Shown one piece after another: positions 7,874-59,970 of a stretch of DNA of 64,000 nucleotides. A program made the translations under genes and the position numbers. The notes below the pieces were generated by a model that did not search any database, had not been told where the DNA came from, and saw only the letters and a list, made by a program, of their open reading frames with translations. Positions within the stretch are counted from its first letter, which is position 1, and every line of letters begins with the position of its first letter. This DNA comes from Actinomycetes bacterium. GTDB taxonomy: Bacteria; Actinomycetota; Coriobacteriia; Coriobacteriales; Atopobiaceae. The stretch lies in contig JAKPQM010000023.1 of assembly GCA_029546925.1 (NCBI GenBank), positions 62,001-126,000 of the forward strand, in the 5' to 3' direction.

Positions 7874-8059
7874 CGCCGTTTCCCCCTTTCCGCAATCGAA
7901 GGCTCTCCGGCTTCGCCCACCCCGGCTCTTGCCGGACTATCTTGCACCCTAATCGCGTCACCTCCTAGCGGGTACTCTCGAGCGTTTGACCGCTCGTGGG
8001 CATACTACACCACTTCACGTTATTTCGCAAACCTCGTCCCGATTTCTTGTTTCTTGTCC

Positions 8060-8065
8060 TATAAT
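8060..8065 (+). promoter_or_regulatory. Probable -10 box for the IetAS-like operon
   Basis: A perfect TATAAT at 8060-8065 lies 31 bases before the AUG at 8097, which has an AAAGGAGG ribosome site. No good -35 box is present at 16-18 bases spacing, so an activator or an extended upstream region may be needed. Confidence 0.5.
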
Positions 8066-8096
8066 GTCTCTTAGAGTAAAGGAGGATGGGACACCC

Positions 8097-11361: not shown

Positions 11362-11376
11362 TAAGAAGGGCGGGTT

Positions 11377-12558
11377 TTGTTGGTGATACCTTTCTCGGAG
11401 ACCGAGATTAATCGCTCGGATATAGATCAGTCGCTGCTTGATATCGACCAGCGCAGCAGGACTAGCTTATTCGCCTGGAATGGACAGTTCTCGCCACAGT
11501 TTATAGAAGCTCTGCTCGAGAAGTATGCAGACTCTTCCTCCGTGGTCTACGATCCGTTCGCTGGTTCGGGAACAGTACTAACGGAAAGTGCTCGCAAGGG
11601 ATTGTCCGCATATGGTGTCGAGCTTAATCCCGCAGCTTATTACATGGCGAAGTGCAACGAGCTCTGTGTGCTGTCACCCGAAGAGCGACAAACAGTCATC
11701 GATGAGGTTGGCACCAGTCTGACCTCAGCACTTAGCTACGATAACCAGGAGAAGGCTCTGTCAGAGTGGTACTCAAGCTTTGAGCCGAGTAAGCAAAAAG
11801 ACCTCGCAGCTCTACTCATCGTTCTCTGTGACCTATACAAGAACGAAGCAACTCCAATGCTCGTCTCTACGAAATGGGCTTCTCTGAGCGAGCTGGTCTG
11901 CACGCTGCCGCATACTGGCGGTGTCATCCGTGCAATCAACTCTGATTCGAGAAACGCCCCGTTAGAAGATAACCTGGCAAGCCTGGTTATAACCTCACCG
12001 CCATACATCAACGTAATGAACTATCACCAGCAATATCGTCGTTCGGTTGAAGTCCTTGGCTATAAGGTACTCGCTATTGCTAAAAGTGAACTGGGTTCTA
12101 ACAGGCGAAATAGGGGCAATCGATTCCTTACAGTAATCGAATACGCCATTGATATGGCCCTCTCGCTTATCGAAAGCAGCCGAATCGCCAAGCCAGGGTC
12201 ACGAATGATATACGTTGTCGGAAAAGAATCAACGGTGCTCGGTTCTACGTTCTCAAACAGCGAGATCGTCTATAGGGCTGCCTGTGAGATTGCTGGCCTC
12301 AGATATCTCATGCGTCAGCAGAGGGTTTTCAAAAACCGCTACGGTAAAATGATTTACGAGGATGTACTGCACTTCGAAAACGTTGACAGGTTCGAACTCA
12401 TCAGCGAGGAGAAGGCGATTGCCGACGCACGTCTTATCGCGCGTGATGCCATCATCGCGGCGAGGGACCTGCGCATCGAGAGCGAAGGCGATACGTCGGA
12501 AAAGGTCCTATTACTTAATCAGGCATTGGGAAAGCTTGAACAGGTCGGGAAGGCGTAG
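11377..12558 (+). CDS. DNA methyltransferase (amino-methyltransferase) of a restriction-modification pair
   Basis: 393 residues. The start is TTG at 11377 (TTG at 11380 or GTG at 11383 are alternatives), after AGAAGGG. Motif I DPFAGSGTV at about 59-67 binds S-adenosylmethionine. Motif IV TSPPY near 207 is the catalytic loop of N4-cytosine/N6-adenine methyltransferases, with motif I before motif IV. The gene lies 15 bases after the subtilase and 9 bases before the next gene. Base composition changes sharply at its start: it is clearly AT-richer than the prophage around it, with rarer codons, a sign of separate acquisition. It should protect host DNA against the partner product. The target base and site cannot be read from the sequence. 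Confidence 0.8.
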   Translation: MLVIPFSETEINRSDIDQSLLDIDQRSRTSLFAWNGQFSPQFIEALLEKYADSSSVVYDPFAGSGTVLTESARKGLSAYGVELNPAAYYMAKCNELCVLSPEERQTVIDEVGTSLTSALSYDNQEKALSEWYSSFEPSKQKDLAALLIVLCDLYKNEATPMLVSTKWASLSELVCTLPHTGGVIRAINSDSRNAPLEDNLASLVITSPPYINVMNYHQQYRRSVEVLGYKVLAIAKSELGSNRRNRGNRFLTVIEYAIDMALSLIESSRIAKPGSRMIYVVGKESTVLGSTFSNSEIVYRAACEIAGLRYLMRQQRVFKNRYGKMIYEDVLHFENVDRFELISEEKAIADARLIARDAIIAARDLRIESEGDTSEKVLLLNQALGKLEQVGKA

Positions 12559-12567
12559 GAGGAAAAG

Positions 12568-13491
12568 GTGGCACGCGGAGTACACGGCGAGAAGATAGTC
12601 GCTCTACTGACTAATGCGAAACTGCCAAAAAGTGATGTTGCGAGAGTAAATGCAGCTATAGCAAGATACGATGCTTGGATACACGAGCTGCAGACTGCCG
12701 ATGCGCCGACGCTGAGCAAGCTGGTCAGTGTGCTCGTCCACAACCTTACAATGTATAAGCTATACATTGACCTCGACTTCATCTTTGATAGTGAAGAGGA
12801 CTTCCTGTACAGACAAAAAGGCCAGCTCAAACTAGACAATACCGTGATGGAGGAATTCCTTCCCATTTTCGTCCGACGGTGCATCGAGAAGGAAACGGGA
12901 TCATGTGACCTGGTCATTAGTTCGCAGGCACAAGTCTTCTCCTCTGCATACTTCGAAAGCAGCTTAGCGGTGCCCGCCATTGGGGGCGGTCTTCAAATCA
13001 AAACGAAGGCACAGGACTTCTCGATTTCAAGGCCACTCCATCTGCTGGCTTCGTATTCCAGCGGTTTTGAAGACGACCAGACCCTGATGCGGACGACTTC
13101 GCTTGGCTATACGATGGCCGAACTAAAGACCAATCTCGATAAGACCATGTTTCAGGAGGCCGCTGCCACTGCACATGATGTGAAGATAGCCATACCAAGC
13201 TCGAAGTACTACCTGCTTTGTGACTTCCTCGATATGAAACCCATCAGCACGAGTACGACAGACATCGAGGCTATTTTTATCCTCCGAAAGGCTAAGCGCA
13301 TCTCGTCGAACGTTCGAAAGTCATATGCGACATACAGTGGTCGTGTTGCTGGTAGAGCCGCCTATAAAGACTACCTTTGGTCGCACCCGTATTCAGTCGA
13401 GCTTTTCGAGGATTTCATAGGTCGTATTTTGCAACAGCTCGCATTCGATGACCTTTCCGAAGAAGACGTGCTCAATCGCGGGTTGTTCTAA
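12568..13491 (+). CDS. Putative type II restriction endonuclease
   Basis: 307 residues, GTG at 12568 after TAGGAGGA, immediately behind the methyltransferase and with the same lower GC content. The middle contains DFIFDSEEDFLYRQKGQLKLDN and a following EEFLPIF. From memory this recalls the Bpu10I-type restriction endonuclease family, but I cannot confirm that, and no PD-(D/E)XK signature is certain. A basic stretch near residue 250-265 could bind DNA. Its pairing with a lone methyltransferase is the main reason for the call. It could instead be an unrelated accessory protein. Confidence 0.55.
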   Translation: MARGVHGEKIVALLTNAKLPKSDVARVNAAIARYDAWIHELQTADAPTLSKLVSVLVHNLTMYKLYIDLDFIFDSEEDFLYRQKGQLKLDNTVMEEFLPIFVRRCIEKETGSCDLVISSQAQVFSSAYFESSLAVPAIGGGLQIKTKAQDFSISRPLHLLASYSSGFEDDQTLMRTTSLGYTMAELKTNLDKTMFQEAAATAHDVKIAIPSSKYYLLCDFLDMKPISTSTTDIEAIFILRKAKRISSNVRKSYATYSGRVAGRAAYKDYLWSHPYSVELFEDFIGRILQQLAFDDLSEEDVLNRGLF

Positions 13492-44512: not shown

Positions 44513-44539
44513 TTCTCGTGTACAGAGGAGATGTGCGGC

Positions 44540-45826
44540 ATGGAGATTAGACGTGACAAGTATCTGAACGACCTTGTCGTCCGCAAGGGCAACGGGATGA
44601 TCAAGGTTGTCACGGGCGTCAGGCGCTGTGGGAAGACCTTTCTGGTATTCGACTTGTTTGTCCGCCATCTCATCGAGTCGGGGGTCCCAGAAGACCACAT
44701 AATCGCTCTGGCTCTCGACGACAGGGCTAACGCGCGCTACCGAGACGTCGACACCCTCTATGACTACCTCATGGAGAAGATCGACAGCGATCGAGAGACC
44801 TATTACGTCCTTCTCGACGAGATACAGTATGCCATCACGGCGAAGGAGCTCAGGAGCAAGGGCGAGCCCCCCGCGCTCTACGGCGTGCTCAACGGCCTGC
44901 TTCATCGTCGTAACGTCGACGTTTACGTGACCGGAAGCAACTCCAGGCTGCTCTCCACGGACGTGATGACCGAGTTCAGGGGTAGGGGCGACGAGGTCCG
45001 CATCCGCCCGCTGACCTTCGCGGAGTTCATGCAGGCGTTCGACGGCGACCGTCAGGAGGGCTGGGCCGAGTACGTCATGTACGGCGGGCTGCCCCTCGTG
45101 CTCTCCATGCGGACTCCTGAGCAGAAAGCGTCCTACCTTGCAGGCCTTTTCGATGAGGTCTATCTCTCGGACGTTGTCGAGCGAAACCACCTCACCAAGT
45201 CGCAGGAGCTCGAAGATTTAGTGGACGTGCTCGCTTCCTCCATCGGAGCCCTCACGAACCCTTCGAAGATCGAGGCGACGTTCAGGAGCGAGCTGCGCTC
45301 GAGACTCGACGCCGACACCATCAAGCGCTATCTCGGACATCTTGAAGAGGCGTTCCTCGTGAGCGAGGCGACCCGCTACGATGTGAAGGGGCGCAGGTAC
45401 ATCGGCACGCCTAAGAAGTACTACTTCGAGGACATGGGGCTCCGGAACGCACGGCTGGGGTTCAGGCAGGTCGAGGAGTCGCACATCATGGAGAACGTCA
45501 TCTACAACGAGCTGCGTGCCCGGGGGTTCTCTGTGGATGTCGGCGTGGTGGACAGGCGCATGAAAAACAACGGTCGTGACGAGCGCCGCCGCTACGAGGT
45601 GGACTTTGTGGCGAACCTCGGCTATCGCCGCTACTACATCCAATCTGCGCTGCAGCTCGATACCCCGGAGAAGGTCGCGCAGGAGAAGCGCTCTCTTACG
45701 CTCATCGACGACAGCTTCAGGAAGATCGTGGTGGTGAACCGCGTCATGCGGCCCTACATGGACGACGACGGCATCCTTACCATGGGGCTGTTCGATTTCC
45801 TGCTCGACCCAAACAGCCTTGACTGA
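44540..45826 (+). CDS. AAA_14/DUF4143-type ATPase
   Basis: 428 residues from the ATG at 44540, ten bases after AGAGGAG. An ATG at 44531 is too close to the site. Walker A GVRRCGKTF near 27-35, Walker B VLLDEIQYA near 90, and the DVYVTGSNSRLL sensor motif near 130 mark the family. The C-terminal half has the DUF4143 pattern (LDADTIKRYLGHLEEAFLV; KKYYFEDMGLRNARL) and ends with a restriction-endonuclease-like fold segment (VDFVANLGYRRYYIQSAL). Such proteins are widespread in gut bacteria and their physiological job is not established. A second member is at 62804. Confidence 0.85.
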   Translation: MEIRRDKYLNDLVVRKGNGMIKVVTGVRRCGKTFLVFDLFVRHLIESGVPEDHIIALALDDRANARYRDVDTLYDYLMEKIDSDRETYYVLLDEIQYAITAKELRSKGEPPALYGVLNGLLHRRNVDVYVTGSNSRLLSTDVMTEFRGRGDEVRIRPLTFAEFMQAFDGDRQEGWAEYVMYGGLPLVLSMRTPEQKASYLAGLFDEVYLSDVVERNHLTKSQELEDLVDVLASSIGALTNPSKIEATFRSELRSRLDADTIKRYLGHLEEAFLVSEATRYDVKGRRYIGTPKKYYFEDMGLRNARLGFRQVEESHIMENVIYNELRARGFSVDVGVVDRRMKNNGRDERRRYEVDFVANLGYRRYYIQSALQLDTPEKVAQEKRSLTLIDDSFRKIVVVNRVMRPYMDDDGILTMGLFDFLLDPNSLD

Positions 45827-45828
45827 TG

Positions 45829-46080
45829 GGCGCATGCTCTGGCGGGGATCTCCTGCCGTTCGGTGAGCTTGCAGACCGACGTCTCCGATACGCGCGGGTA
45901 ATCGGCGACCTGCGGCGCGTCCATGAAGCCGTCGGGCAGGTCGCTCGCTTCGGATGCCGAGGAGCCAGCAGACCCCCGTATCTCCGCCCCGGCATTCTCG
46001 CGGCATTCGGAATCAGTATCCGATATTTCAGGGTGCGCCGGGAACGCGTCGTGTGGCATCTGGAGGATGTCGTCTTTCAT
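45829..46080 (-). pseudogene. Decayed excisionase-type HTH gene fragment
   Basis: On the minus strand the frame from 46080 gives an acidic leader and then DAPQVADYPRVSETSVCKLTERQEIPAR, clearly the start of a MerR/excisionase-like helix-turn-helix (typically VADYLRVSERTVYKLV-RGEIPA). After that point the frame loses its meaning and runs into the 3' end of the ATPase gene. It is therefore a truncated remnant, perhaps of a mobile element. Next to it (46110-46143) is an eight-pair hairpin, CTCGGGTC with GACCCGAG. The rest of 46081-46410 shows no gene. Confidence 0.55.
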
Positions 46081-46410
46081 GGGATGGCCCTACCGCCTCT
46101 CGTCTTGCATCTGGCGCCCTCGGGTCGCAAGAAGACCCGAGGAGTCGCGTCTCTTGGACGGATAAGCAGAGAGATACCTGCTGGGAGACGTGCGCGCAAA
46201 GCCTGGCGGGGCTTTAGGCCACGCTAAGGCTCGCTAGGCTGCGGATGCATTCAACCACACGACTTTACCGAAGCTCTGTGGCGACAACGCTCCGATAATC
46301 GCGTCCTGTCACATGCACGGAAAACGATGACCATAAGCACGGCGAGCAAGGGCGACATACCCGCAGTGACGCCCCGCCCCCAGCGCTTCCAGCCGCACCG
46401 ACCGCATCTT

Positions 46411-46440
46411 TTGATTGCCCTATCTGTCACACGATATACT
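46411..46440 (+). promoter_or_regulatory. Promoter of the ApeA-like gene
   Basis: TTGATT at 46411-46416, 18-base spacer, TATACT at 46435-46440. The mRNA would start near 46447, leaving a 90-base leader before the chosen start. Confidence 0.6.
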
Positions 46441-46537
46441 GGACTCTATAAGATAATCTGACATGATGGCAATATCGGAAAGCCCGATGACGACATCCAT
46501 GCCCACGTATAAGCAAGCAACCAAGGGAATCTGCATT

Positions 46538-47926
46538 ATGAGCGCTGACATCCAATACGCTGGCCACTGGAAGATTCCTGGTACAGACGAGGTCTTCGAG
46601 GGCACCCTCCATTACAACGAAGAAACAAGGGTGATCGTTCTCCTGTTGATACAACCGTCCGACGTCCAGACGCTCGGCTCGCATATCCTCGTATCGTCTC
46701 GAGCCCCCGTTATCTGCGGCAAACTATTCTCGGGCGCTTACGTCGCACTTCTCGGATGCCTCAGAACCAACACCCATACGCACATAGGCAGCCATACCAC
46801 AGAGACTATCTATGCGGACTATGCCCTCTGGGGTCTTGAGGAGGGTGACTGCGAATCCCCCTTGTTTCAGGGTTGCACAATCGACTATGGGGCCGTCCTC
46901 GAGTGGGCCGGGCTCTGCTATTACGACCTAGATACCAAGGAAGGACACCTCGGCGAGATAATCAGGTGGTCGCACGAGAACGACATCAAACTCGACGTTA
47001 GCGGAGGCCTCCATCTGCGATTCTCTCCAGAACAGGGCTCAATGAGCTTCGTGGACTACCACAACGACGTGACTTTTCACCAACGCATTGAGGCGCGTCT
47101 CTTCTACGACGAGCCTAGACGCTGGCAGGAAATCATGCACGATGTGGACTGGCTCAGGCGGCTGATTGAGCTCGGCAAGGGCCGTGAGGTCGGCATCAGA
47201 GGTGCGCGATATCTGCATCCCTCACATCTTCTGCCAGAGGAATACGGTGCCGAGGGGCAAGATCGGTATAGGCCTGCTGACGTCCTACTCGGAACTGAAC
47301 AGAGGGACGTTGCCGATGAAAATTCTCGCCGCTGGACGTTCCTGTTCAGCCTCTCAGAGGCATACGAGTGCGGGGCACTACGTGCATGGTTTGAGAAACG
47401 CGACGAGCTAGAGCCGGTCGTCGACCTCTACACGCTTGCCTATACGCACAAGATTCCCTCTGCGATGGCCCTCTTCCTCAACCTCATGCAGGCTTTGGAG
47501 GCCTATCACGCCCGATTTGTGTGCGACAGCGGCCAAGACTACAAGAAGCGTGTTGACTGCCTAGTTGATAATGCATCCGATGCCGGCTTTGATGTCCGTG
47601 ACTTCCTATGCGACAGTGGCCAGCAAGCTTCAAAGAAAAAACTGTACCTCAAGAGCAGGATAAGCGACCTCCTATACGCTGGGGGAAGACGCCCCGTCTC
47701 GCCAAAGCATATGAGCTTTCTCGATTTTCCCCAGAAGCTGGTGGACACGAGGAACTACTACACCCACTTCAGCCCGGATAAGAGGGGCAAGGCTTTCGGA
47801 AAAGAAGAGCTGCCCATAATCAACGCCGAGCTAATGGCGTTACTCGAATACCACCTGATGCTGACACTGGGCTTCGACGACGGGACCACCTTGACGAACG
47901 TGCAGCGTAGACTCAAAAATCGATAA
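46538..47926 (+). CDS. ApeA-like HEPN anti-phage protein
   Basis: 462 residues from the ATG at 46538 (AAGGGAA upstream). ATGs at 46463 and 46487 would only add an unconserved tail. The N-terminal beta-rich part (YAGHWKIPGTDEVFEGTLHY; HTTETIYADYALWG) recalls the ApeA N-terminal domain. The C-terminal helical part is a HEPN domain with the RNase motif R-x4-H in LVDTRNYYTHFS near residue 405. ApeA is a one-gene anti-phage defence that kills or stops infected cells by RNA cleavage. Here the gene stands alone beside other accessory genes. The assignment is from motif and architecture, without a database check. Confidence 0.75.
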   Translation: MSADIQYAGHWKIPGTDEVFEGTLHYNEETRVIVLLLIQPSDVQTLGSHILVSSRAPVICGKLFSGAYVALLGCLRTNTHTHIGSHTTETIYADYALWGLEEGDCESPLFQGCTIDYGAVLEWAGLCYYDLDTKEGHLGEIIRWSHENDIKLDVSGGLHLRFSPEQGSMSFVDYHNDVTFHQRIEARLFYDEPRRWQEIMHDVDWLRRLIELGKGREVGIRGARYLHPSHLLPEEYGAEGQDRYRPADVLLGTEQRDVADENSRRWTFLFSLSEAYECGALRAWFEKRDELEPVVDLYTLAYTHKIPSAMALFLNLMQALEAYHARFVCDSGQDYKKRVDCLVDNASDAGFDVRDFLCDSGQQASKKKLYLKSRISDLLYAGGRRPVSPKHMSFLDFPQKLVDTRNYYTHFSPDKRGKAFGKEELPIINAELMALLEYHLMLTLGFDDGTTLTNVQRRLKNR

Positions 47927-48021
47927 GCCAGTAACCATCTGCCTTCGCTTCGTTATGCCTCTTGAATCCGAGTGCCACCCGATTTTGTTGACGGTTGGCT
48001 TCCGTACTGTGGGTATGCAGC

Positions 48022-48328
48022 CATGTAGTCACCTTGCAAGCAGGAAAGCAAGTATTCCCAGTTCAATGCCGTCACTCTTCACTCGGGAATTGTCATTCTT
48101 GGGTCGGGGAGCAACCCACTCCGCCGGCACCGTTTTCGTCCATGTAGTCAGTTGCGCACAATTGAACCGTGTTTCCGCAGTTCAACCGTGTCACTCTCCG
48201 GTCGGGCGAAAATACTCTCCCCAGGTGACTACAGAGCATGTAGTCACCGCTGACTACAGGGCGACTACACGGTTTTTGCGATATGAGAGTGGAGGTAACT
48301 CCAGCTCACCCACCTCGCTGACTACATG
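48022..48328. repeat. Cluster of TGTAGTCA octamers in a non-coding region
   Basis: TGTAGTCA occurs at 48024-48031, 48143-48150 and 48239-48246, and its complement TGACTACA at 48226-48233, 48251-48258 and 48319-48326, plus CGACTACA at 48262. Copies at 48224-48233 and 48239-48248 form a perfect ten-base inverted repeat with a five-base gap. Around the first two copies a longer, degenerate duplication of about 119 bases is visible (shared AGTTCAA...GTCACTCT...TCGGG). No gene lies between 47927 and 48576. Confidence 0.75.
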
Positions 48329-48363
48329 GAAACGGGCTATGCAACGATTGAGTGGGAGTAGGC

Positions 48364-48410
48364 CATCTAGCGCACTCTTTTAGCATCTAGCCGCATCTTT
48401 TGGCATCTAT
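48364..48410. repeat. Short tandem repeat, 20-base period
   Basis: About 2.4 copies of a 20-base unit starting CATCTAG (48364, 48384, 48404), the first two differing at a few bases. It sits just before a strong terminator and has no coding sense. Confidence 0.7.
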
Positions 48411-48411
48411 T

Positions 48412-48452
48412 GTACCGCCCCGATCATTCCCATGGAGTGATCGGGGCGGTAC
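48412..48452. terminator. Strong hairpin, probable bidirectional terminator
   Basis: A perfect 15-base stem (48412-48426 with 48438-48452) and 11-base loop, very GC-rich, with TTTACC after it on the plus strand. It separates the ApeA-like region from the Fic gene. Confidence 0.7.
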
Positions 48453-48525
48453 TTTACCGTGAGCGTATTCATCCGAAGTGCATCGGGGAATATCGAAATC
48501 TCATGCGGCTATGGGAAGGCATCCC

Positions 48526-48563
48526 TAATATACCGCCAATGGCGGTATATTATTGGCGGTAAT
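48526..48563 (+). promoter_or_regulatory. Palindromic operator of the Fic gene
   Basis: A perfect palindrome with 12-base arms (48526-48537 and 48541-48552, centre AAT) built on ACCGCC/GGCGGT. A third half-site TTGGCGGTAAT follows at 48553-48563. It lies 14 bases before the Fic ATG and covers the likely -10 region (TATATT). The Fic protein has its own winged-helix domain and may bind here. Confidence 0.75.
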
Positions 48564-48576
48564 GAAAGGATACGCT

Positions 48577-49533
48577 ATGGCATATGAACCTCCGTTCCAA
48601 CGCAACGACACGATAGATTCGCTTTGCATGGAGATCGCAGAACTCGTGGGCATGCTCTCCCCGCAGGCGCCGTTGGCAAAGAGCCCCACACTGCATCGAG
48701 AGCTCAGGATAAAGACGATTCACTCCTCCCTCATGATCGAGGGCAATAAGCTCGACGAGGAGACCGTGACCGCCATCTTGGACGGAAAGCGCGTTCTCGG
48801 CGACAGCCACGACATCTTGGAGGTGGAGAACGCCAAGCGCGCCTACGACCTCATCCCCGAGCTGGACCCCTACTCCATAGACGACCTGTTAAGAGCCCAT
48901 CGCGCGATGATGGAGGGTCTGATCCCCGAAGCCGGACGTTTCCGTAGCGGAAACGTCGGCGTGTTCGATAGGGGCGTCCTCATCCACGCGGGCACTCCCG
49001 CAGCATACGTCCCCGAGGTGATGGCAGACATCTTCGGCTGGCTCGGAGGAACGAGCGTTCACCCCCTTCTTGCCTCGTGCATCTTCCATTTCGAGTTCGA
49101 GTTCCGCCATCCCTTCTCCGACGGCAATGGGAGGACGGGGCGGCTGTGGCACACGCTGCTTTTGTCAAAGTGGAGACCCGTGCTCGCATGGCTGCCCATC
49201 GAGAGCGCCATCAGGCAACGACAGGCAGACTACTACAAGGCGCTCGCGGATTCGGATGCAACGGGATCCAGCGAACTGTTCGTCAAGTTCATGTTGGAGG
49301 CGATACGCGATTCGATCATGCCGTTCGCCAGCCCCGTAAGCGAGAAGGAGCTGACTCGAGCCAAAGCGCTCGAATTCTTCAGGGAGCACGGCGACGGAAA
49401 CGTTGCCCGGCTCGCGGACATCCTCGGGTGTTCGAAGAGAAGCGCCGAGCGCATAGTCGCCGAGCTGAAGGAGGAAGGCGCTCTCTCGAGGAAAGGAAGC
49501 GCCAGATCGGGCATCTGGATCGTTGGGGATTAG
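48577..49533 (+). CDS. Fic-family protein with N-terminal inhibitory motif and C-terminal winged helix
   Basis: 318 residues from the ATG at 48577 with AAAGGA eight bases upstream. ATGs at 48553 and 48562 fall inside the operator. The AMPylation motif HPFSDGNGRTGR is near 178-189. The inhibitory helix SLMIEG ([ST]xxxE[GN]) near 51 makes it a class II, self-inhibited Fic protein. The C-terminal 70 residues (LEFFREHGDGNVARLADILGCSKRSAERIVAELKEEGAL) form a winged helix. Its role may be to modify a host or phage protein with AMP and also to control its own gene. Likely autoregulation is read from the adjacent palindrome. Confidence 0.85.
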   Translation: MAYEPPFQRNDTIDSLCMEIAELVGMLSPQAPLAKSPTLHRELRIKTIHSSLMIEGNKLDEETVTAILDGKRVLGDSHDILEVENAKRAYDLIPELDPYSIDDLLRAHRAMMEGLIPEAGRFRSGNVGVFDRGVLIHAGTPAAYVPEVMADIFGWLGGTSVHPLLASCIFHFEFEFRHPFSDGNGRTGRLWHTLLLSKWRPVLAWLPIESAIRQRQADYYKALADSDATGSSELFVKFMLEAIRDSIMPFASPVSEKELTRAKALEFFREHGDGNVARLADILGCSKRSAERIVAELKEEGALSRKGSARSGIWIVGD

Positions 49534-50760: not shown

Positions 50761-53022
50761 CTAGCCTTTGTAGCTGTCTTCTCCTTGGCTCAACAAGGCA
50801 AAGTCAATCGAAGACGCGATAAGTTGGCCTGGATACCTCTCGTGGACATGGGTGAGAACTGACCAACAGGCCCTTCTTATCGCCTCATCATCTGGTGCCT
50901 GATCTCTGTCGAACAGCGAAGCTCCGTGCGATTGGTCTTGGCAGACAGAATAGATGTACTCGCAATCTTTGAGTACAGAGCATTCGGGTGTATTGAGGTA
51001 TTCGAGCAAATCCTTCGAGGCGGGATTGTCGAATCGCCAGAGTGATTCTATGACCTGCCGTATGGAGTTGCCAGTCGTGTGCATTGGGGTGGATTCGCCG
51101 AGTGCGACCTTGTAAAGGTCCTTAAGGTGCTCGTTGTAGGGGGTTATGTAGTGGCTTTTGCACACCTCAAAGGTACCGTCGTGGAAGACGAAGCATTCCT
51201 TCGCAACGCCGTTCCTGGCAAGCATGTTGAAGAACGCGCTGTTGTGCGTCATAAGTAGGAATCGCACGCGGTTGAGGTCAAAGGCCACGTTAAGGTCCCT
51301 GATAATCTGCAGCACACTGTAGACGTAGTGATAGTCAAGGCTTGAGATCGGGTCGTCGATGATGAAGAACAGATTGTCGGCGTCATCATCACTTCCGAGT
51401 AGATTCCATGTGGACGCGACGTAATGGCAGAAGGCAAGTGCCGACTTCTCGCCGTCGCTCATTACATTCTCGGCATCGTCACCGAGCAAGGAATCGCCAA
51501 GCGAAATTGTGAACTGCTCAGGGTCGAAGACGTACCTGTCTCCGAAGACCGCGTGAATCATATTCGCAAGCATTTGCGCGATTGCAGCTCGCTTTGGCCT
51601 GCGGCCCTTGACCTCATCTGCCTTTATCTCGGCATCGAGCTGCTTGTAATCTTGTGCAATTGCTTCGCTCTCTGCTATCACGGCATCGCACTCGGCTCTG
51701 ACCTTGCGGGCCATTTCGGCGCACAGGTCCCGTTTGACGTTAGTGAGCGTCTTTGAGGCGTCGGCGGCAAGTCTATCGAATTGGGCGAGGTAGTTATCGG
51801 CGGTGGTGATAGCGGTGCCAATGTCGTCTAAGAGTCCAAGAAGTTTCGTCGCTGGATCGGCATCATAGGCAATCGAGATGTCTTCCATCTTGCTCGTCAA
51901 AGACTCGACGACGTCATCGATTGCCTCTTTCATGTCGGTTGAGCCCACAATGTCGGGAAACTCTGTCTGGCTGATGCTGGCAAAGGCGGGTTTCAGGGCA
52001 TCATACTGGGTCTTCTTCGCCTGGTAAGTAAGGATGAACTGCTCGAATGAGGTATACAGCGAGCTCAACGCGCGGATGTGTCCCTCTATTTCGGCGATGG
52101 CTTTAGCCTCTGCGCCGCGTATGTATTCCTCGTAGTTGAGGATAAGCGCCTTCACGTCGCTGTCGTTGTCGTAGGGCCTGCCGCAGTAGGGGCATTTGCC
52201 GTCTTTGGTTAGCTGCAGGCCACGGCTGATGAAATCCCTCTTTGGTTGCACCTCTGCCAGAAACTCGTCAGCGAAACTGTCTCGAGTGTAGCGATTCGGA
52301 AGCAATGCACGTATGCTCTCAAGGTCGACTTGCCCCGCATCGAACCTGAGACCGGCCAGGGTTGGTATGGGCTCTGGTAGCCCGTGCAGGGCCTCGAACT
52401 CTCTGAGCTTGCTTTCGTAATCCGACTCGCATTGCGCCATAGCCAGTATGTTCTGCGTGGTGAGATCGGTGTAACCCCTGAGTCTTGATAGCCCAAGGTC
52501 CGAAAGCGTTCTGCGTGCCGTTTGCACAGCCTTTTCGATGGCGTCGAATTTCTCTTGCCTGCGCCTGTTCAATTCCGCTAGCTGGTCCTTCTTGTCGGAA
52601 ACGTCGATGTTCTCCTTGCCGATGATGTAACCGGTGAAGCCGTCACCGCTCGGGGAAAAGTGGCGAGTGCTGAGGTTGTCTCTGATGTAGTCGCTATTGA
52701 ACACGTGAAATATATAGCCGGTGCTGTTTGCGACAGCTGCGGAGCCGCCATGGGCCATAGTCACATGCAGCTCCTTTGACTGCGAGCTTCCGTCTGCTAC
52801 ACGGAAGTCAAATGTCCCGTTGCTGCCGGTGCGGTTAATCACGCTGTCCGTCAAGGGCTGCGCGTCTGCATCTGCTGTGCGGAATAGTCGGCTGATGCAG
52901 GTCTTGCCCTGGCCGTTTCCAGAGTAGATGGCGACACGTGAGTTGTTAAGTGACATCAAGCCGCCAGCCTGCGTGGCAAACGGTCCGAAGCCTTTGATCT
53001 TGATCTCCCAGCTAAATTCCAA
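50761..53022 (-). CDS. RloC/PrrC-like ABC ATPase with zinc hook, putative anticodon nuclease
   Basis: 753 residues, TTG start at 53022 behind AAGGAGGGG. The ATPase is split as in Rad50/RloC: Walker A SGNGQGKTC at 34-42, then a coiled coil interrupted by CPYCGRPY near 280 (zinc-hook-like), then signature VMSDGEKSALAF near 517, Walker B LFFIIDDPISSLD near 548 and the His switch MTHNSAFF near 590. The C-terminal domain has R-x3-E (RQVIE, about 655-659) and a His about 40 residues on (SHG). This resembles the Arg-Glu-His set of PrrC/RloC anticodon nucleases. RloC cuts tRNA when DNA is damaged or restriction is disturbed. Last gene of a four-gene methyltransferase operon, separated from the previous gene by 71 bases. 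Confidence 0.75.
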   Translation of the reverse strand: MEFSWEIKIKGFGPFATQAGGLMSLNNSRVAIYSGNGQGKTCISRLFRTADADAQPLTDSVINRTGSNGTFDFRVADGSSQSKELHVTMAHGGSAAVANSTGYIFHVFNSDYIRDNLSTRHFSPSGDGFTGYIIGKENIDVSDKKDQLAELNRRRQEKFDAIEKAVQTARRTLSDLGLSRLRGYTDLTTQNILAMAQCESDYESKLREFEALHGLPEPIPTLAGLRFDAGQVDLESIRALLPNRYTRDSFADEFLAEVQPKRDFISRGLQLTKDGKCPYCGRPYDNDSDVKALILNYEEYIRGAEAKAIAEIEGHIRALSSLYTSFEQFILTYQAKKTQYDALKPAFASISQTEFPDIVGSTDMKEAIDDVVESLTSKMEDISIAYDADPATKLLGLLDDIGTAITTADNYLAQFDRLAADASKTLTNVKRDLCAEMARKVRAECDAVIAESEAIAQDYKQLDAEIKADEVKGRRPKRAAIAQMLANMIHAVFGDRYVFDPEQFTISLGDSLLGDDAENVMSDGEKSALAFCHYVASTWNLLGSDDDADNLFFIIDDPISSLDYHYVYSVLQIIRDLNVAFDLNRVRFLLMTHNSAFFNMLARNGVAKECFVFHDGTFEVCKSHYITPYNEHLKDLYKVALGESTPMHTTGNSIRQVIESLWRFDNPASKDLLEYLNTPECSVLKDCEYIYSVCQDQSHGASLFDRDQAPDDEAIRRACWSVLTHVHERYPGQLIASSIDFALLSQGEDSYKG

Positions 53023-53093
53023 TACCCCTCCTTAGCGCCCGCATTGAGCAGCATGCTCGTGCCATTTGAGCCTTAATCGTGTTCACGTGCACA

Positions 53094-56000
53094 CTAAATA
53101 GTATCAATACACGCCCTGTTAAGCTCATCGAACTCCGGCAGAGCTTTATAGTGCTGCTGGAAAACTTTTCGACGTCTACTCAACGTGCCTCTTGACGGGT
53201 CAAGTAGAGCGGCGAGCCGAGTATCGGACGCACAGTCATCTGCCAGTTTTGCTTGCAGTATTCTGGTTGCCTCTACGACTTTCAGGTGCCTTTCGTCTGT
53301 AGGGTCAAATTCGCTTATCAGACTGAGAGGCAACGTGTGTATATGCCTCTTCCCGAAGTTTCCTTCGGGCTGGAACTCCTTAATGGCGTCGTTTATGGCA
53401 TCGCTGTTTAAAAGTCCCACGTAGTACAGCGCTTCGTCCTCGCTGGCAGCACCGCGCCAATAGAGCGTTTGATCTATCGCAAGTTTGTGCGGCCGGCTCA
53501 ACTCGTTGCAGTTGATAGCGGCTGCGCTTATGTTGCTGCCGCCAGCGCCGTAGAGAATGCGCCAAGTTGAGGTGTCCTGAAGGGTGTGAGACAACTTGCT
53601 CCTTGTGTCGATATAGGCGAGGTAGCCACCCTTTTCGGCATAGAACTCCGTGCCGCCCTCAGAGCAATGCCTAATTTTGTCGGCAAGCACCTTATTGCTT
53701 CTTCCAAGCAAGGTGAGCTCACGATCGCTCAGTTCTACCGCACCCTGCCCCGGGGCGTGCTTTACGGGCATGAAAGCTTTAAGAGGATATACCGGCGCGA
53801 AAGGCATGACCTGGTTGGACGTAATCATATCGTAGAGCAAGGATCCATCGATGTTGGTCGCAGTGCCCACGCTGAATGTCTTGCACTTCTTGCCATCCTT
53901 AACGGCAAATGATAAGGCATCGCCAGAAGTGGGTATTGAGCTAACGGTCCAGAGATCGTTAGGCTGTCTATTACACTTGAATATGACGGCAGTGCGCGGC
54001 ATCCCGTCAAAACCCTGATTAAACGTTATCGAATCGAGTGTCTGCTCGACATTCTGCGCTCTGTAGGAATAGGCTGTTGCCCTTCCATTTGTGATGAGCT
54101 TGAAAGTGACGGGGGTCTCTTGTAGATCGGCGTCGAGGACGCAGCCTTGTACCTCTTCTGCGACATGGGTGGAAGGCTCTTTTACGCCGAAAAGCACTGC
54201 AGCCCGGTTGTTGAAAGCCTCCTTGGGCAGCTCCCAAATTCCGGTCAGCTTGAAGCCGGTCGGAATGGGGGCCTTCAAATACTCGCCGGTCCTGAATGGC
54301 TCTTCATGTCTTCCGTTCAGCATGCTATGAGGCATGATGCACGCAATGATTCCGCCTTCGGTAACATATCGCTGTATCGAGGCGACAAAGAAAATCGTAG
54401 CGAGTTCGACATGTAGGAAAGCACTTCCGCGCGGCATGATGCCGTGCGCGTTTGCGAGGCGCGCAAGCGCGTCATGATACGGGTTGCCACGCAGCCTGCT
54501 CAGAGCTAGCCATGGCGGATTCGACACTATTCCGTTGAACTGCCCTGACGCAAAGGCGGGCTTGAAGGAGTTGCTTAAGACGAAGGGCCAAATGCCGTTC
54601 CTGTCTCGGCCCCGAAGGTCGCTGAGTACTTGAATAAGGTCGCCATAGGTTCTCGTGGCATCGGCGGCTTCCCGTTCGCCAAGCGTTACGGCAGCCCTTT
54701 TCGCGAGGTTCGAAAAAGATAAGCTAACGTATTCATCGTCAACTGCATGGCCGTTGTCCGAGCAATCGGCGGCTATGCTATCAGCCTTGACCATCATTTC
54801 GTCAAATAGCTGCCGATACGGCCTGCTGATTAGGAATTGCGGGATGACAACGGTCCTGTCGTAAAGTCTTGCCTCAAGCTCGTTACGCCCAGCGGGGTCG
54901 TGTACGCTTACGGGAGTTCTGGTGAAGAGCGAGTCGGCGTGATAGACGGGGATATGTACAGCCCCGATGAAGTAATGGATGTAGGGTTTCATTACTAGAA
55001 CCCAGTTGACCTTCGATAGAAGGACTGCCAGCGGGTCGACGTCGAATCCATAGATGGATTCCGCTAATAGCGTAAACTGGTCCTGGGTTATCACTTCCGG
55101 CTTTCCGATAGAGTCGATGAGCTGTGAAAGCGTCTCCACCACGAAAATGCCTGATCCGCAACACATGTCGACAAGGTGGGGCCTTCTGTCTCCAAGATTG
55201 TCAAGCACTTGCGCGACCATCTTTGAGGCGATTGGCTGAGGGGTAGGAGCTTGGCCTAGGAGTATCTTCTTGTCCACGCCAGCCATTTGCGAAATGAGCC
55301 TGCCGAAGAGGTCGGTTGTGGCGACGTTAGCGAAGTCGTAGACCATAAGGTCTCTCTGGATTTCGGTTGCGCGTTCCACCAGGTCATCCACATAAGGGTC
55401 GGTGTTCAGCCATCCGAAATAGTCGTACTCGACAAGGTTGTCTATTCCCATGCTTACGAAGAAGCTGCCGTCAAGTATGTCGCGAATCTGGTTAGCGTCC
55501 CTCTCGGGCGCACTCGACTCAAGGATGTTTGCAGCGATGAGCTTTGCAAGGGTAATGATGTATAGCTCGTGCGAGTAGTCCTTGACAAATCCGCTTCCTG
55601 CTCCAGTAACGCCTTCCACGAAGCTGGTCCATAGTCCTTCTACAAGCTTGGCGTAGCCGGGGTTATTGTCGCATGCTTTTAGCACGAGTTCTCTAATTGC
55701 GTCGGTCCTCATCTTTGTGCTGCCGCAGTTGAGGCCGAAATCGGAGACGAGTGCCTTGGGCGTCAGCTTCTTTGAGCCGATTCGTCCGTAGTATCTGTTG
55801 ATGAATAACTCAAACCTCCTGAGGTTTTCGTCGGAGGTGTCCGTCATGTCCAGGCGGTCAATTTCTTCAAGCTCGAGGTCATCACGTCCCCAGAGGCCGT
55901 TGTCCGCCATGGGGCGCCCGTCATATTCGATCGTCACCTTGTACGCGTACCAGTGGACCGTGTCAGAAAGAACTCCGACTATGTTCTCCTGGTCAACGTT

Positions 56001-56363
56001 TTTGTTTAGGAGGCCGGCACAATAGTCTTCTGCCTGTTCGTATCCATGGTCGAAGATGGCCTGTCGAGTGAGGTTCTTCTCGTACTCCACCGCCGTGTAG
56101 CCGATAAGCGCGTCAGCAAAACCGCTCTTTCTGGTGTTATCGACGCTGTAAGTCTCGTTCGCCTCGGCTTTTCTCGCATGTTCGTCAATCCACCACGGCT
56201 TGCTCGGAAACATGATTGGCAGTCGTGTGCAGAATAGGTATCGAAGGGGATCTTCCTTGGAACTGTCCGTTATATCCTGGCTGGCCTGGACGAAAAAATC
56301 CCTTGCTGCATCGTAGTCGAGCTCCGCTCGAAGCTCATAGTCGTCGCTGAGCATGGCTGTCAC
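53094..56363 (-). CDS. N6-adenine-type DNA methyltransferase with probable N-terminal nuclease domain
   Basis: 1089 residues. The start is GTG at 56363 overlapping the previous stop (GTGA), or ATG at 56354. Motif I LVDMCCGSGIFVVE near 398-411 and motif IV SNPPWLAL near 612 mark a gamma-class N6 methyltransferase of the Eco57I kind. The C-terminal part (DKIRHCSEGGTEFYAEKGGYLAYIDT; RGAASEDEALYYVGLLNSDAIN) resembles target-recognition regions. At residues 80-100, SGFADALIGYTAVEYEKNLT followed by QAEDYCAGL and GVLSDTVHWYAY looks like a PD-(D/E)XK nuclease start (Asp84, Glu93, Glu95/Lys96). A single chain that both cuts and methylates, as in type IIG enzymes, is therefore likely but unproven. Confidence 0.8.
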   Translation of the reverse strand: MTAMLSDDYELRAELDYDAARDFFVQASQDITDSSKEDPLRYLFCTRLPIMFPSKPWWIDEHARKAEANETYSVDNTRKSGFADALIGYTAVEYEKNLTRQAIFDHGYEQAEDYCAGLLNKNVDQENIVGVLSDTVHWYAYKVTIEYDGRPMADNGLWGRDDLELEEIDRLDMTDTSDENLRRFELFINRYYGRIGSKKLTPKALVSDFGLNCGSTKMRTDAIRELVLKACDNNPGYAKLVEGLWTSFVEGVTGAGSGFVKDYSHELYIITLAKLIAANILESSAPERDANQIRDILDGSFFVSMGIDNLVEYDYFGWLNTDPYVDDLVERATEIQRDLMVYDFANVATTDLFGRLISQMAGVDKKILLGQAPTPQPIASKMVAQVLDNLGDRRPHLVDMCCGSGIFVVETLSQLIDSIGKPEVITQDQFTLLAESIYGFDVDPLAVLLSKVNWVLVMKPYIHYFIGAVHIPVYHADSLFTRTPVSVHDPAGRNELEARLYDRTVVIPQFLISRPYRQLFDEMMVKADSIAADCSDNGHAVDDEYVSLSFSNLAKRAAVTLGEREAADATRTYGDLIQVLSDLRGRDRNGIWPFVLSNSFKPAFASGQFNGIVSNPPWLALSRLRGNPYHDALARLANAHGIMPRGSAFLHVELATIFFVASIQRYVTEGGIIACIMPHSMLNGRHEEPFRTGEYLKAPIPTGFKLTGIWELPKEAFNNRAAVLFGVKEPSTHVAEEVQGCVLDADLQETPVTFKLITNGRATAYSYRAQNVEQTLDSITFNQGFDGMPRTAVIFKCNRQPNDLWTVSSIPTSGDALSFAVKDGKKCKTFSVGTATNIDGSLLYDMITSNQVMPFAPVYPLKAFMPVKHAPGQGAVELSDRELTLLGRSNKVLADKIRHCSEGGTEFYAEKGGYLAYIDTRSKLSHTLQDTSTWRILYGAGGSNISAAAINCNELSRPHKLAIDQTLYWRGAASEDEALYYVGLLNSDAINDAIKEFQPEGNFGKRHIHTLPLSLISEFDPTDERHLKVVEATRILQAKLADDCASDTRLAALLDPSRGTLSRRRKVFQQHYKALPEFDELNRACIDTI

Positions 56364-58210
56364 TCTCTCCTAATCTTCAATCTCAGATCGAGCTCGTCTC
56401 TCCACTTTGTAATGGTGTCGCTCACGTTTTCCGCTGACATCATTGCTTGGGCGATTGCAAGGTCGATTTCGTCCTGCGCCTTATCTGTATCGCTTGGCCT
56501 ATTCGACTTTGCTATCTGCATGCCTAGGTCACTCAATCGCTTCCTGAGCTCTGAGCTTGGTGCGGGCAGCGCCATCTTACGTATGGATACGGCCTCACAC
56601 TTGAGTGCGCCGCCACCGAGCACATTGCATGTCGTCTCAAGACCCAGCCTAACGTAGGTCGAGTTCAGCAAAGCCAAGGCGGCATAGGCGTCAGCTCTAT
56701 CTCTCGAATCAACCCATAGGGTAGAGAAATTTGCATCTACGACGCCGCCCTGTCCTTCTGGCAATAGGTACGCTCGCACCGGCCCTCCGTTAATCCGAGG
56801 TATTACGAGGTCGGGCATGTGTCGGTCTTTAAGCTCGGGCAACATGTACCAATATCGATCGCTTTCACATGTTTCGCTTGTCGGCCCATTCGTCCTTACC
56901 GCTGACAGTTGCGGTATGCGCTGCTTTCGCCCGTTCTGTACAACGTCATGGGTCTCGCAGTAGGCAATATACCTTGCGAGTGCGTTGTAAGCTCCACCGT
57001 TCTCAACCGCATCGTCAAAATTGATAGGCTCTATGATGCGGAGAAGGAGATGGGCGGGCCTTCGGTTGTCGATGAGGCATCCTCCTGTGATTTCATCTTG
57101 GTAGCGTAGGGCCGGAATTAGCGGTAATTCGTTTGGATCGACTGGTTCGTTGCCTACAATCTCGCTCCAAATCGCATTGCTCGCACGGCCGTTTTCGCTC
57201 AATGAGAAATAGAAGAATCCGTTGGCGCCGGTACGGAGACCTTGTCCTACGCTGATATGCCAATCTCGTAGTGTTGCGCCGCTATTCGCATGTTCTTGTA
57301 CGCCTTCCATCCGTATGTCCCATGCGTACAAGGGCTCGTCTCTGACCCAGACGCTTTCATCTGCGAACTGAGCCTCGTTGACGCAAACGCTCTTGAAAGC
57401 ATCAGTTCCGATCGTACCGCTGTAGGAAAGATTGCCCACAAGGGATTCGGAATTAGCTGCATGTTTGGTCAGACCAACGTGACGGACGTCTTTCTGTGTC
57501 ATCTGCGTAGCCCAGTGCTGATTCTTAGTGGCTACGAGTAGGCTTGTTTTGACTTGCGCGTCCGCGAACCATGACCGACTCTCGTCGATGATTACCCGTT
57601 CCACAGTGAAGTTTGCCGCAAGAATCTCGTGTATGGCGGCAGAATACTCTCTCTTAAGCCAAGAGTCGGGAAGTACCATCGCCAACTTGCCGCCTGGCTT
57701 GACGAGATATGCGCAGAGTATCCAGCAGGGTACAGCCAGGTCCGCAAGGCCCGAATAGGATCTTGCCGCATTGAGGTAATGCCTCTTGGCGCCGTTATCG
57801 TCAAGGGCATCGATGACCTTTCCGAGAAGCCCCCTCACAGTGTCAACAGGGTCGTCACCGTACATCGCACTCAGCTTTTGATATCGGACGTATGGTGGGT
57901 TGGTAATGACAAGATCCCATTCGCGTGCTCGGTAAACATCCGTAGCCTCGCTGCTGAATGCATCAGTCGCAAGTAGGTTGTGTCCGGGTATTGCCGTTGT
58001 GGCACCGGCAATAGCCGAACCGTCAATATCAATTCCAAATAGGTTCTCTGGTTTTGCGCCGGCTCTCCGCAAAGCTTCAAGCATGTCAGCCTTGCCAACC
58101 ATGGGGTCAATCGCATTTATGCTCTCGCTGCTTTGGATGTCAGCGGCGCTAACAAGAAGGTCGGACACTAGGGGACCAGAAAAGAATTGCCCGATTGACT
58201 TGTTGCTCAT
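56360..58210 (-). CDS. N6-adenine DNA methyltransferase, TaqI/Eco57I-like
   Basis: 616 residues, ATG at 58210, overlapping the upstream gene by four bases. The GQFFSGPLVSDLLVSA opening, motif I AIDPMVGKADML near 33-44, NPPY at 104-107 (ITNPPYVRY) and LPDSWLKREYSAAIHEILAANFTVERVI near 180 are family features. A C-terminal specificity-like region (about 300-560, TLWVDSRDRADAYAALALLNSTYVRL) probably binds DNA. No nuclease signature is visible. It is the second of three methyltransferases in the operon, which is unusual. Confidence 0.85.
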   Translation of the reverse strand: MSNKSIGQFFSGPLVSDLLVSAADIQSSESINAIDPMVGKADMLEALRRAGAKPENLFGIDIDGSAIAGATTAIPGHNLLATDAFSSEATDVYRAREWDLVITNPPYVRYQKLSAMYGDDPVDTVRGLLGKVIDALDDNGAKRHYLNAARSYSGLADLAVPCWILCAYLVKPGGKLAMVLPDSWLKREYSAAIHEILAANFTVERVIIDESRSWFADAQVKTSLLVATKNQHWATQMTQKDVRHVGLTKHAANSESLVGNLSYSGTIGTDAFKSVCVNEAQFADESVWVRDEPLYAWDIRMEGVQEHANSGATLRDWHISVGQGLRTGANGFFYFSLSENGRASNAIWSEIVGNEPVDPNELPLIPALRYQDEITGGCLIDNRRPAHLLLRIIEPINFDDAVENGGAYNALARYIAYCETHDVVQNGRKQRIPQLSAVRTNGPTSETCESDRYWYMLPELKDRHMPDLVIPRINGGPVRAYLLPEGQGGVVDANFSTLWVDSRDRADAYAALALLNSTYVRLGLETTCNVLGGGALKCEAVSIRKMALPAPSSELRKRLSDLGMQIAKSNRPSDTDKAQDEIDLAIAQAMMSAENVSDTITKWRDELDLRLKIRRE

Positions 58211-59970
58211 GTCCGTACCCCACGTGCTGCAAACTGCGCATATACGTCCCGTGCATCTAGCTCTACCCTTAAGCCGTTCTCAAGACAATGATTCACGTAG
58301 GCGGCGTAAGCATCGCGTGCGCCCTCATGCCCTGCAAGCAGGTCGTAGGAAGCGCCCTCTTCGACCTTGCGGTCATCTATGCAATCATTTGCGCTCAGCA
58401 GAATGAGGGAGTCGTTCTTGACGCCGCCTGCAGAGACGACCTGCTTGAAGCTCTCCTGTGCTTTTGCGAGATGAGATGTCGTTTCCACGGAGAACCCCGC
58501 GTCGTCCATTGCCTTTGAAAGCGCCTGCCATACGCCAGCTTTAGAGGAATGAAAGACGAGCGTCATCAGGCCGTTGTCCGTAAGTACACGTTTGGCCTCA
58601 CGAAGCGAGGCGCATATGCGTGCTCCGTAATCGCCGGCATCTTTGTTTTGCGAGGGGCTTATGATCGCCTCGCAAGTCCTATCAGTTGTCGCATCTAGCC
58701 ACAGCTCGTTTATCTGATTGACCTCGGCATAGGGTATGAAATCGCCAAATGGTGGGTCTGTGAAAACGTATGAGATGGAATCGTCGGGTTCTATCAATTT
58801 GTCACTGCTCTGGTTGCGCACTTCTACGTGGCCAGAGCAGCCGTTGATATAGGAGAAAGCCCTGACAAAAGGCTTAATTTTGCGAGTGAGCCCCTTCAGG
58901 ATGTTCTTCTCGACAGGCAGATTGCTAACGTAGAGCACTCCACTTTGAGCCCCAGTCAAAACGAGATCTCTCGAATCGTGCTTTGCGACCACTCTTGTCA
59001 TGATTGTCGAATGCGAGGCGTTGTAGCTGAGAATTAGCAACCTCAGAGCGTCGCGCATGGCTGGTTCGTATGCTTCGGTCGCACGCCAAAGGGCATCGGT
59101 AACTAGGTAGTTTCGCTTGGTGTAGAAGTGGTGCAAGTGCGTTATGCCGCAGTGATATCCGCTTCTATGCAGCTCTCCCCATTTGATTGCTCGGGGCGCT
59201 GTGCCTGGGAGGAAGTCTAGTTCTTCGATTCGCGCCACGGTTTGCACGTCTATGCTATTTGCAGCTCGACGCCAATTGTTACCGTCGGTTTCGCCGTAAA
59301 GCAATACAGGAACACGCCGCCTTCGCGTCACATTTTTCTGCAAAAGCTGATCGTAATAAACTTCAGTAGAGAACTCGTTATCTGAAGTGGTCGCCGAAGC
59401 TCCGCAGTGCGGGCAGGCTCCTACCGACTTTATAGTGAGCGGATCCCATCCGACCATGCCGTCGTAGAAGGTGAACTCTTTTCTGCAGCTCTTACAAGTG
59501 AGTACGCTCGACCAGACAACATGTCGAAGCGTGGATTGTTTTCCGTGCTCATCGACAGTCTCGTATAAATGGCCGTAGTTCTCTTCAACGCCATGAATCA
59601 GTGCCTCTGCAGCCTCAGCAAAATCGGAGGCAATGGGCGGGTTGGTCATCACTCTGGCCGCAAAGGTGCCGTAGGTGCTGATGTCATATAACACAGCATT
59701 TCTTGGACCCCAAACCGGTGCAGCCCCCAGCTTCTCTGCAATGCTAAGCATTGCCGGCGTAGGATTCTCGCACATTTGTGCAGCAAGGCCGGTTGCTCCG
59801 CTTCCGGAAAAAGAGTCGAGAATCGTATCGCCAGGGTCAGTATGAGTCGCGATGTAGACCGCAATAGATTCCGGTGCTATCTTCGTGGGATATGCATACG
59901 TATTGAAGAAAACGCCCGACCTGAATGAAGGCAGTGCACGTTGGTATAGAGTTGCGAGATCGTCCCTCAC
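58207..59970 (-). CDS. DNA methyltransferase with zinc ribbon
   Basis: 587 residues, GTG at 59970 after AAGGTGA. Motif I LDSFSGSGATGL at 51-62 and catalytic motif TDPPFGDFIPYAE near 403 show an amino-methyltransferase. Between them a zinc ribbon (LTCKSCRKEF...ACPHCGAS, about 155-195) is inserted. From memory this recalls the Zn-ribbon adenine-specific methylase group (COG1743/DUF1156). First gene of the operon. Its stop overlaps the next start (ATGA). Codon use is AT-richer than the chromosome's core genes, as for the whole operon. Confidence 0.82.
   Translation of the reverse strand: MRDDLATLYQRALPSFRSGVFFNTYAYPTKIAPESIAVYIATHTDPGDTILDSFSGSGATGLAAQMCENPTPAMLSIAEKLGAAPVWGPRNAVLYDISTYGTFAARVMTNPPIASDFAEAAEALIHGVEENYGHLYETVDEHGKQSTLRHVVWSSVLTCKSCRKEFTFYDGMVGWDPLTIKSVGACPHCGASATTSDNEFSTEVYYDQLLQKNVTRRRRVPVLLYGETDGNNWRRAANSIDVQTVARIEELDFLPGTAPRAIKWGELHRSGYHCGITHLHHFYTKRNYLVTDALWRATEAYEPAMRDALRLLILSYNASHSTIMTRVVAKHDSRDLVLTGAQSGVLYVSNLPVEKNILKGLTRKIKPFVRAFSYINGCSGHVEVRNQSSDKLIEPDDSISYVFTDPPFGDFIPYAEVNQINELWLDATTDRTCEAIISPSQNKDAGDYGARICASLREAKRVLTDNGLMTLVFHSSKAGVWQALSKAMDDAGFSVETTSHLAKAQESFKQVVSAGGVKNDSLILLSANDCIDDRKVEEGASYDLLAGHEGARDAYAAYVNHCLENGLRVELDARDVYAQFAARGVRT

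Follow-up and report, generated by a model that had tools for sequence, protein, structure and literature searches.

The 64,000-nucleotide stretch analysed here (the window; positions 62,001 to 126,000 of contig JAKPQM010000023.1 in the Actinomycetes bacterium assembly GCA_029546925.1, family Atopobiaceae) contains an operon of three DNA methyltransferase genes, designated MT1, MT2, and MT3, which probably constitute a self-contained type IIG restriction-modification (R-M) system, accompanied by a putative modular RloC-type backup in a few lineages. The original prediction had described these genes, together with the RloC-like zinc-hook ATPase gene behind them, as a possible undescribed defence module lacking a classical restriction partner. 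Its account of the locus agreed with our own reading: the four long open reading frames (ORFs) lie on the minus strand at the predicted positions (Table 1), ATGA forms the MT1/MT2 overlap and GTGA the MT2/MT3 overlap, and the ATPase starts with TTG 71 nt past MT3, with the strong ribosome site AAGGAGG 5' of the start. The three methyltransferase motif types that it had distinguished (DPPF in MT1, NPPY in MT2, and NPPW in MT3), the 4-Cys ribbon of MT1 (seen in the alignment), and the zinc hook of the ATPase (from motif reading) were likewise real.

MT3 is a predicted type IIG restriction endonuclease-methyltransferase, in which a nuclease domain, a helical linker, a gamma-class methyltransferase domain, and a recognition domain would follow one another in a single polypeptide, as indicated by PADLOC type IIG profiles, the domain order of the AlphaFold2 model, and Foldseek similarity to MmeI, DrdV, and BpuSI. 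It matched the PADLOC profile REase_MTase_IIG (PDLC03630) with an E-value of 1.3e-46 in hmmscan. In a 30-member MT3 alignment, residues E37, D84, E93, E95, Q110, and Y114 were kept without exception, and the methyltransferase motifs DxCCGSG and NPPW were nearly invariant, with one proline of NPPW varying in 4 of the 30 sequences. The AlphaFold models of the whole protein (mean predicted local distance difference test score, pLDDT, 82.6) and of residues 1–331 (pLDDT 84.7) both place the site residues on an alpha-beta-beta-beta-alpha-beta core, which is the topology of PD-(D/E)xK nucleases. The best Foldseek matches of the full model were MmeI, DrdV, M.BseCI, BpuSI, LlaBIII, and BREX PglX, and the alignment with type IIL/IIG structures extended across approximately 1000 columns. 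Among five stand-alone type IIG-like relatives aligned to the MT3 profile, four (from Salinibacter, Rhodococcus, Corynebacterium, and plasmids of Rhizobium) have D...ExK...QxxxY at the positions of the MT3 site, and the fifth, from Methylocystis, bears ExE, as does MT3 of the window. The claim that no classical restriction partner is present was not upheld, since MT3 carries a candidate N-terminal PD-(D/E)xK-type signature and is type IIG by profile; the notion of a nuclease-free module is likewise not supported.

The three genes form a cohesive unit. A scan of 84,980 species genomes, conducted for MT3 only and with two peptide patterns, so that the counts are a lower bound, revealed 33 loci in about ten phyla, including Actinomycetota, Bacillota, Chloroflexota, Acidobacteriota, Bacteroidota, Pseudomonadota, Myxococcota, Thermodesulfobacteriota, and Verrucomicrobiota. 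MT2 was situated upstream of MT3 on the same strand in all 33 loci, and MT1 upstream of MT2 in every locus whose contig extends that far. Exceptions in layout comprised an extra intervening gene in L063, an MT2 that looks frameshifted in a metagenome-assembled genome (MAG; L057), and a BRC1 bacterium in which MT1 and MT2 are a single 1324-aa protein (L061:6025-9999). A 945-aa methyltransferase beside a Rhizobium enzyme annotated as 'BseRI' was also considered as an MT1-MT2 fusion and is not one. The same gene order was found in a Hymenobacter plasmid and in six IMG/VR contigs; the closest relatives of the host of the window, a gut bacterium, are an uncultured MAG of the Coriobacteriaceae and two isolates of Adlercreutzia, by which its genome (2.4 Mb assembly) would probably be of the Eggerthellaceae/Coriobacteriia. 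The pairwise distance matrices of MT1, MT2, and MT3 correlated with r = 0.966, 0.944, and 0.951 (Mantel p = 1e-4): the triad is inherited as a block. Among 396 sampled genomes of the phylum, a triad-type MT1 was present only in that of the window (884 bits; next best 338), suggesting a rare but cohesive system. A search with Buttiauxella DNA found no triad in complete Escherichia coli genomes, phage and plasmid searches for MT3 returned, with the exception of the Hymenobacter plasmid, type IIG-like enzymes that are only distantly related, and no description of the triad emerged from our literature searches. The gene set is far from a chance assembly, as the order of the three methyltransferases is repeated in every relative found. 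That all four genes travel together held for MT1-MT2-MT3 and failed for the ATPase, which is optional. The original prediction was to be given up if the four genes rarely co-occurred elsewhere or if a search assigned them to a named system of the same composition; it stands halfway, in that the four do not co-travel and the composition of the triad corresponds to a known type IIG organisation.

Regarding the companion enzymes, MT2 is by its sequence a gamma-class adenine methyltransferase with a C-terminal recognition domain, of the M.BseCI/M.Eco57I type. It matched the Pfam families Eco57I (7.3e-10) and N6_Mtase (1.9e-8) and, in a profile search of the PDB, M.BseCI (5.2e-15), and its NPPY motif is invariant (29/29). 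MT1 is a putative BrxXI/PglXI-like amino-methyltransferase of the kind known from type 3 BREX (bacteriophage exclusion), yet it lies outside any BREX locus. It matched PADLOC PglXI (PDLC02541) with 1.7e-111 and displays motif I (DSFSGSG) near the N-terminus, a 4-Cys ribbon insert, and DPPF near residue 405; D52, F54, G56, G58, C159, C162, C186, C189, and DPPF405-408 are invariant in a 28-member alignment. The 4-Cys insert has been described as a hallmark of BREX type 3 BrxXI, with no homologue of the insert target recognition domain (TRD) found outside BREX (PMC12839542). In a maximum-likelihood tree, the triad MT1s and one phage orphan split from all sampled PglXI-type homologues (SH-like approximate likelihood-ratio test, SH-aLRT, 100; branch 0.73) and formed their sister group. 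The orphan, 40% identical and without MT2 or MT3, is located at L100:7767-9797 on an IMG/VR contig of the same phage as L096, which also holds terminase-like and integrase-like genes; it nests beside the viral triads and is a candidate self-protecting anti-restriction methyltransferase.

The arrangement has described counterparts. BpuSI is composed of R~gammaM~S & M1 & M2 and BseRI of R~gammaM~S & M1~M2, the nuclease-methyltransferase and the two methyltransferases together modify both strands of an asymmetric site, and the BseRI companion is an N4-methylcytosine (m4C) methyltransferase fused to a gamma-methyltransferase (PMC3874165). The idea of an undescribed system is therefore not supported, as the composition corresponds to that of a type IIG enzyme with two companion methyltransferases. 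The accompanying statement that the locus lacks partners from BREX, DISARM, or Pgl and from type I or III systems stands; no HsdR/Res helicase or HsdS was found at the locus in the ORF list or with Pfam and PADLOC. From the layout shared with BpuSI/BseRI and the fusion order in L061, we infer that MT3 would cut and mark one strand, MT2 would act on adenine, and MT1 on the other strand. MT3 would recognise an asymmetric site, its gamma-methyltransferase domain would methylate one strand, and its N-terminal PD-(D/E)xK-type domain, with Glu at the place of the usual Lys, would cut unmodified DNA at a distance. MT2 would write N6-methyladenine (m6A), MT1 would write m4C or m6A on the strand that does not hold the target A, and the marks of both would protect host DNA on both strands.

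The ATPase is RloC-like, a predicted anticodon nuclease (ACNase), and appears to be accessory rather than part of the core. It matched Pfam AAA_13 (1.7e-39) and, over its full length, PADLOC PDC-S06 (PDLC04898; 676 bits), and it carries the ABC motifs SGNGQGKT, SDGEK, and DDP as well as a residue triad that fits the published definition R-x3-E-x36-52-H, in which a Ser frequently precedes the His (PMC2610378). Immediately behind MT1-MT2-MT3, an intact RloC was found only in the window and in one relative (G076/L039), the two being 17% identical. Adlercreutzia ZJ304 (L041) has a decayed copy of the G076/L039 type, L040 has none, and Stenotrophomonas (L064) bears a third type upstream of MT1; triad-linked RloCs are 17–25% identical to one another. 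A 63% homologue of the window RloC is located directly behind McrB/McrC fragments at L101 (G077 contig C66):569-4354 and may guard a type IV restriction system there. Since RloC is absent or different in relatives and this homologue sits behind McrBC, RloC is to all appearances an exchangeable accessory that has come to lie next to restriction systems more than once. That RloC normally guards type I systems, as had been assumed, does not agree with the founding paper, which calls such linkage rare (PMC2610378). An HsdR-like gene does occur on another contig of the host (G000 contig C53:3178-3570), so that the RloC could pair with a type I system in trans as well. RloC can be activated by DNA breaks (PMC3874168; PMC12707154), which would fit a nuclease partner. 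In the lineage of the window, the RloC-type nuclease would have been added behind the operon, would remain silent while restriction works, and would cut tRNA once it is triggered by phage counter-defence or by the DNA breaks that follow, a backup step to which we assign an even chance. The idea of a defence module with a tRNA-cleaving fallback thus remains plausible in view of the complete set of RloC motifs and of a triad that travels as a unit in defence islands of many phyla; the ATPase is optional.

As to the surroundings of the triad, a gene for a helix-turn-helix (HTH; Cro/C1) or ribbon-helix-helix (RHH) protein of 70–110 aa immediately precedes MT1 in about half of the loci for which enough upstream sequence is available; there is none in the window. 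These small genes resemble the controller proteins of R-M systems. Neighbours at other loci include Gabija GajA, McrBC-like genes, QatC, DruH (Druantia), RloC, PD-Lambda-4, PDC-S53, and PDC-S68, and the operon in the window adjoins ApeA-like HEPN, Fic, and DUF4143 genes.

We weighed three other explanations against the type IIG reading. In a BREX-like exclusion module, MT1 would mark self DNA as a BrxXI enzyme, and the other genes would block phage replication without cutting. Such a module would account for the sister-group position of MT1, for the common 4-Cys insert, and for the resemblance of the MT3 methyltransferase domain to BrxX/PglX, but not for the conserved nuclease-type site of MT3. 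Moreover, MT1 is without the 280–300 aa C-terminal HTH region of BrxXI, no further gene recurs at all triad loci, and no BREX component appeared among the neighbours scanned. A genome-wide check of the host (G000) found no PglZ, whereas the PglXI genes of three genomes of the same family have PglZ 4–6 kb downstream; BREX identity was rejected on this ground, and a BREX-like module seems very unlikely. The same low standing applies to the obligate four-gene system with RloC as effector that had been proposed at first. It draws on the RloC-like genes that immediately follow MT3 in the window and G076/L039, on the decayed copy in Adlercreutzia ZJ304, and on the upstream copy in Stenotrophomonas, but no RloC-like gene was found at the other triad loci, the low identity among the RloCs points to separate acquisition, and the 63% homologue of the window RloC sits behind McrBC in G077; with RloC absent or different in most triads, an obligate unit was rejected.

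Least likely of the three is that the genes encode epigenetic regulators or orphan methyltransferases and that the nuclease domain is dead. The Lys of ExK is indeed Glu in MT3, and Foldseek yielded no nuclease for the isolated domain; however, the four acidic residues and QxxxY are invariant over about ten phyla, BamHI has Glu at the same place (PMC4081073), the triads frequently lie beside defence genes, and restriction-like small regulators precede MT1. The same two points count against the type IIG reading: the site departs from ExK as ExE, and the isolated N-terminal model had no significant match among solved structures (best E 0.5). The Pfam scan assigned this region to no nuclease family, so that the nuclease call is based on motifs, on topology, and on homology to type IIG relatives rather than on a fold match. 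The triad is likened to BseRI and BpuSI by their described layout and not by gene-sequence homology. Finally, MT1 of the Hymenobacter plasmid (L009:8107-9902) is split into two overlapping frames with MT2 and MT3 intact; barring a sequencing error, the cell should not survive this if its protection depends on MT1.

The analysis identifies a cohesive, probable three-gene restriction system in about ten phyla, for which the PADLOC models gave separate and unrelated hits (PglXI, type II methyltransferase, and type IIG). It also places the BrxXI insert-methyltransferase outside BREX, where none was reported by a survey of 2026. RloC may be a plug-in guard for several restriction types (the type IIG triad and McrBC), and the question of what it watches becomes directly testable. 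A bolder proposal, which we regard as rather unlikely, is that the triad represents a restriction lineage of its own, where DNA would be licensed only by three different methyl marks together, one of them from a BREX-type BrxXI enzyme. It would form an evolutionary bridge between BREX type 3 modification and type IIG restriction, with exchangeable RloC guards that would sense its inhibition or its DNA breaks.

Additional genes were observed in the window and at related loci. The remainder of the defence island (window 44531-49533) includes a DUF4143 AAA protein (PADLOC PDC-S01), an ApeA-like HEPN protein (46463-47926; Pfam 7.7e-30 and 1.4e-17), and a SoFic-like Fic protein (48553-49533). A PLD-like protein of about 360 aa (FHPK...GSANLT) accompanies the triad at L063:8759-9838, L045:4494-5567, L067:9233-10321, and L089 and L091:11189-12274, in one case between MT2 and MT3 and in two cases overlapping the stop of MT3, and is a possible optional second nuclease. 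At 7986-13491 of the window, near prophage genes, overlapping genes encode an AAA ATPase and a subtilisin-like protease (names read from the sequence); the only member of this group matched in the family search was a DNA methyltransferase with SPPY (11377-12558), and a 307-aa protein of the group may be its restriction enzyme. Terminase- and portal-like ORFs are situated at 14.8–18.4 kb.

Table 1. Features of the operon and their positions in the window.
Feature	Position	Strand	Basis
MT1	58207-59970	minus	587 aa ORF
MT2	56360-58210	minus	616 aa ORF
MT3	53094-56363	minus	1089 aa ORF
RloC-like zinc-hook ATPase	50761-53022	minus	753 aa ORF
MT1 4-Cys Zn-ribbon, residues 159-189	59404-59496	minus	Four Cys 28/28; counterpart of the BrxXI insert-TRD Zn finger
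MT3 candidate nuclease active site: E37, D84, E93-x-E95, Q110-x3-Y114	56022-56255	minus	Invariant 30/30
MT3 methyltransferase domain (DMCCGSG, NPPW), limits approximate	54264-55376	minus	Pfam N6_Mtase/Eco57I; motifs (nearly) invariant
ATPase zinc hook CPYC, residues 277-280	52183-52194	minus	Motif reading
ATPase predicted ACNase triad R655-x3-E659-x39-S698-H699	50926-51060	minus	Fits RloC definition

When compared to known systems, the ATPase resembles RloC (PMC2610378) in its ABC motifs, in the CxxC zinc hook within a coiled-coil insert, and in its R-x3-E-x39-SH triad. In contrast to known RloC, which occurs alone or beside type I systems, that of the window is linked to a type IIG triad, and its tRNase activity is a prediction. 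MT1 shares with BrxXI/PglXI of BREX type 3 the core and the 4-Cys ribbon insert, but comprises about 590 aa instead of 830–1000 aa and forms a separate clade without the C-terminal HTH region or a genomic PglZ. The Eco57I system (RM.Eco57I and M.Eco57I) also places a gamma-class companion beside a bifunctional R-M enzyme, and MT2 belongs to the Eco57I Pfam family; however, Eco57I has one companion methyltransferase, while the triad has two. In BpuSI and BseRI, as predicted for the triad, a single polypeptide combines nuclease, methyltransferase, and recognition functions, and two further methyltransferases, which differ in class, are separate or fused; the order MT1~MT2(gamma) of the L061 fusion is the m4C-methyltransferase~gammaM order of BseRI. 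The triad differs from both in an MT1 of the BrxXI/4-Cys-insert lineage, in a candidate nuclease site of the ExE instead of the ExK type, and in being a block conserved across phyla.

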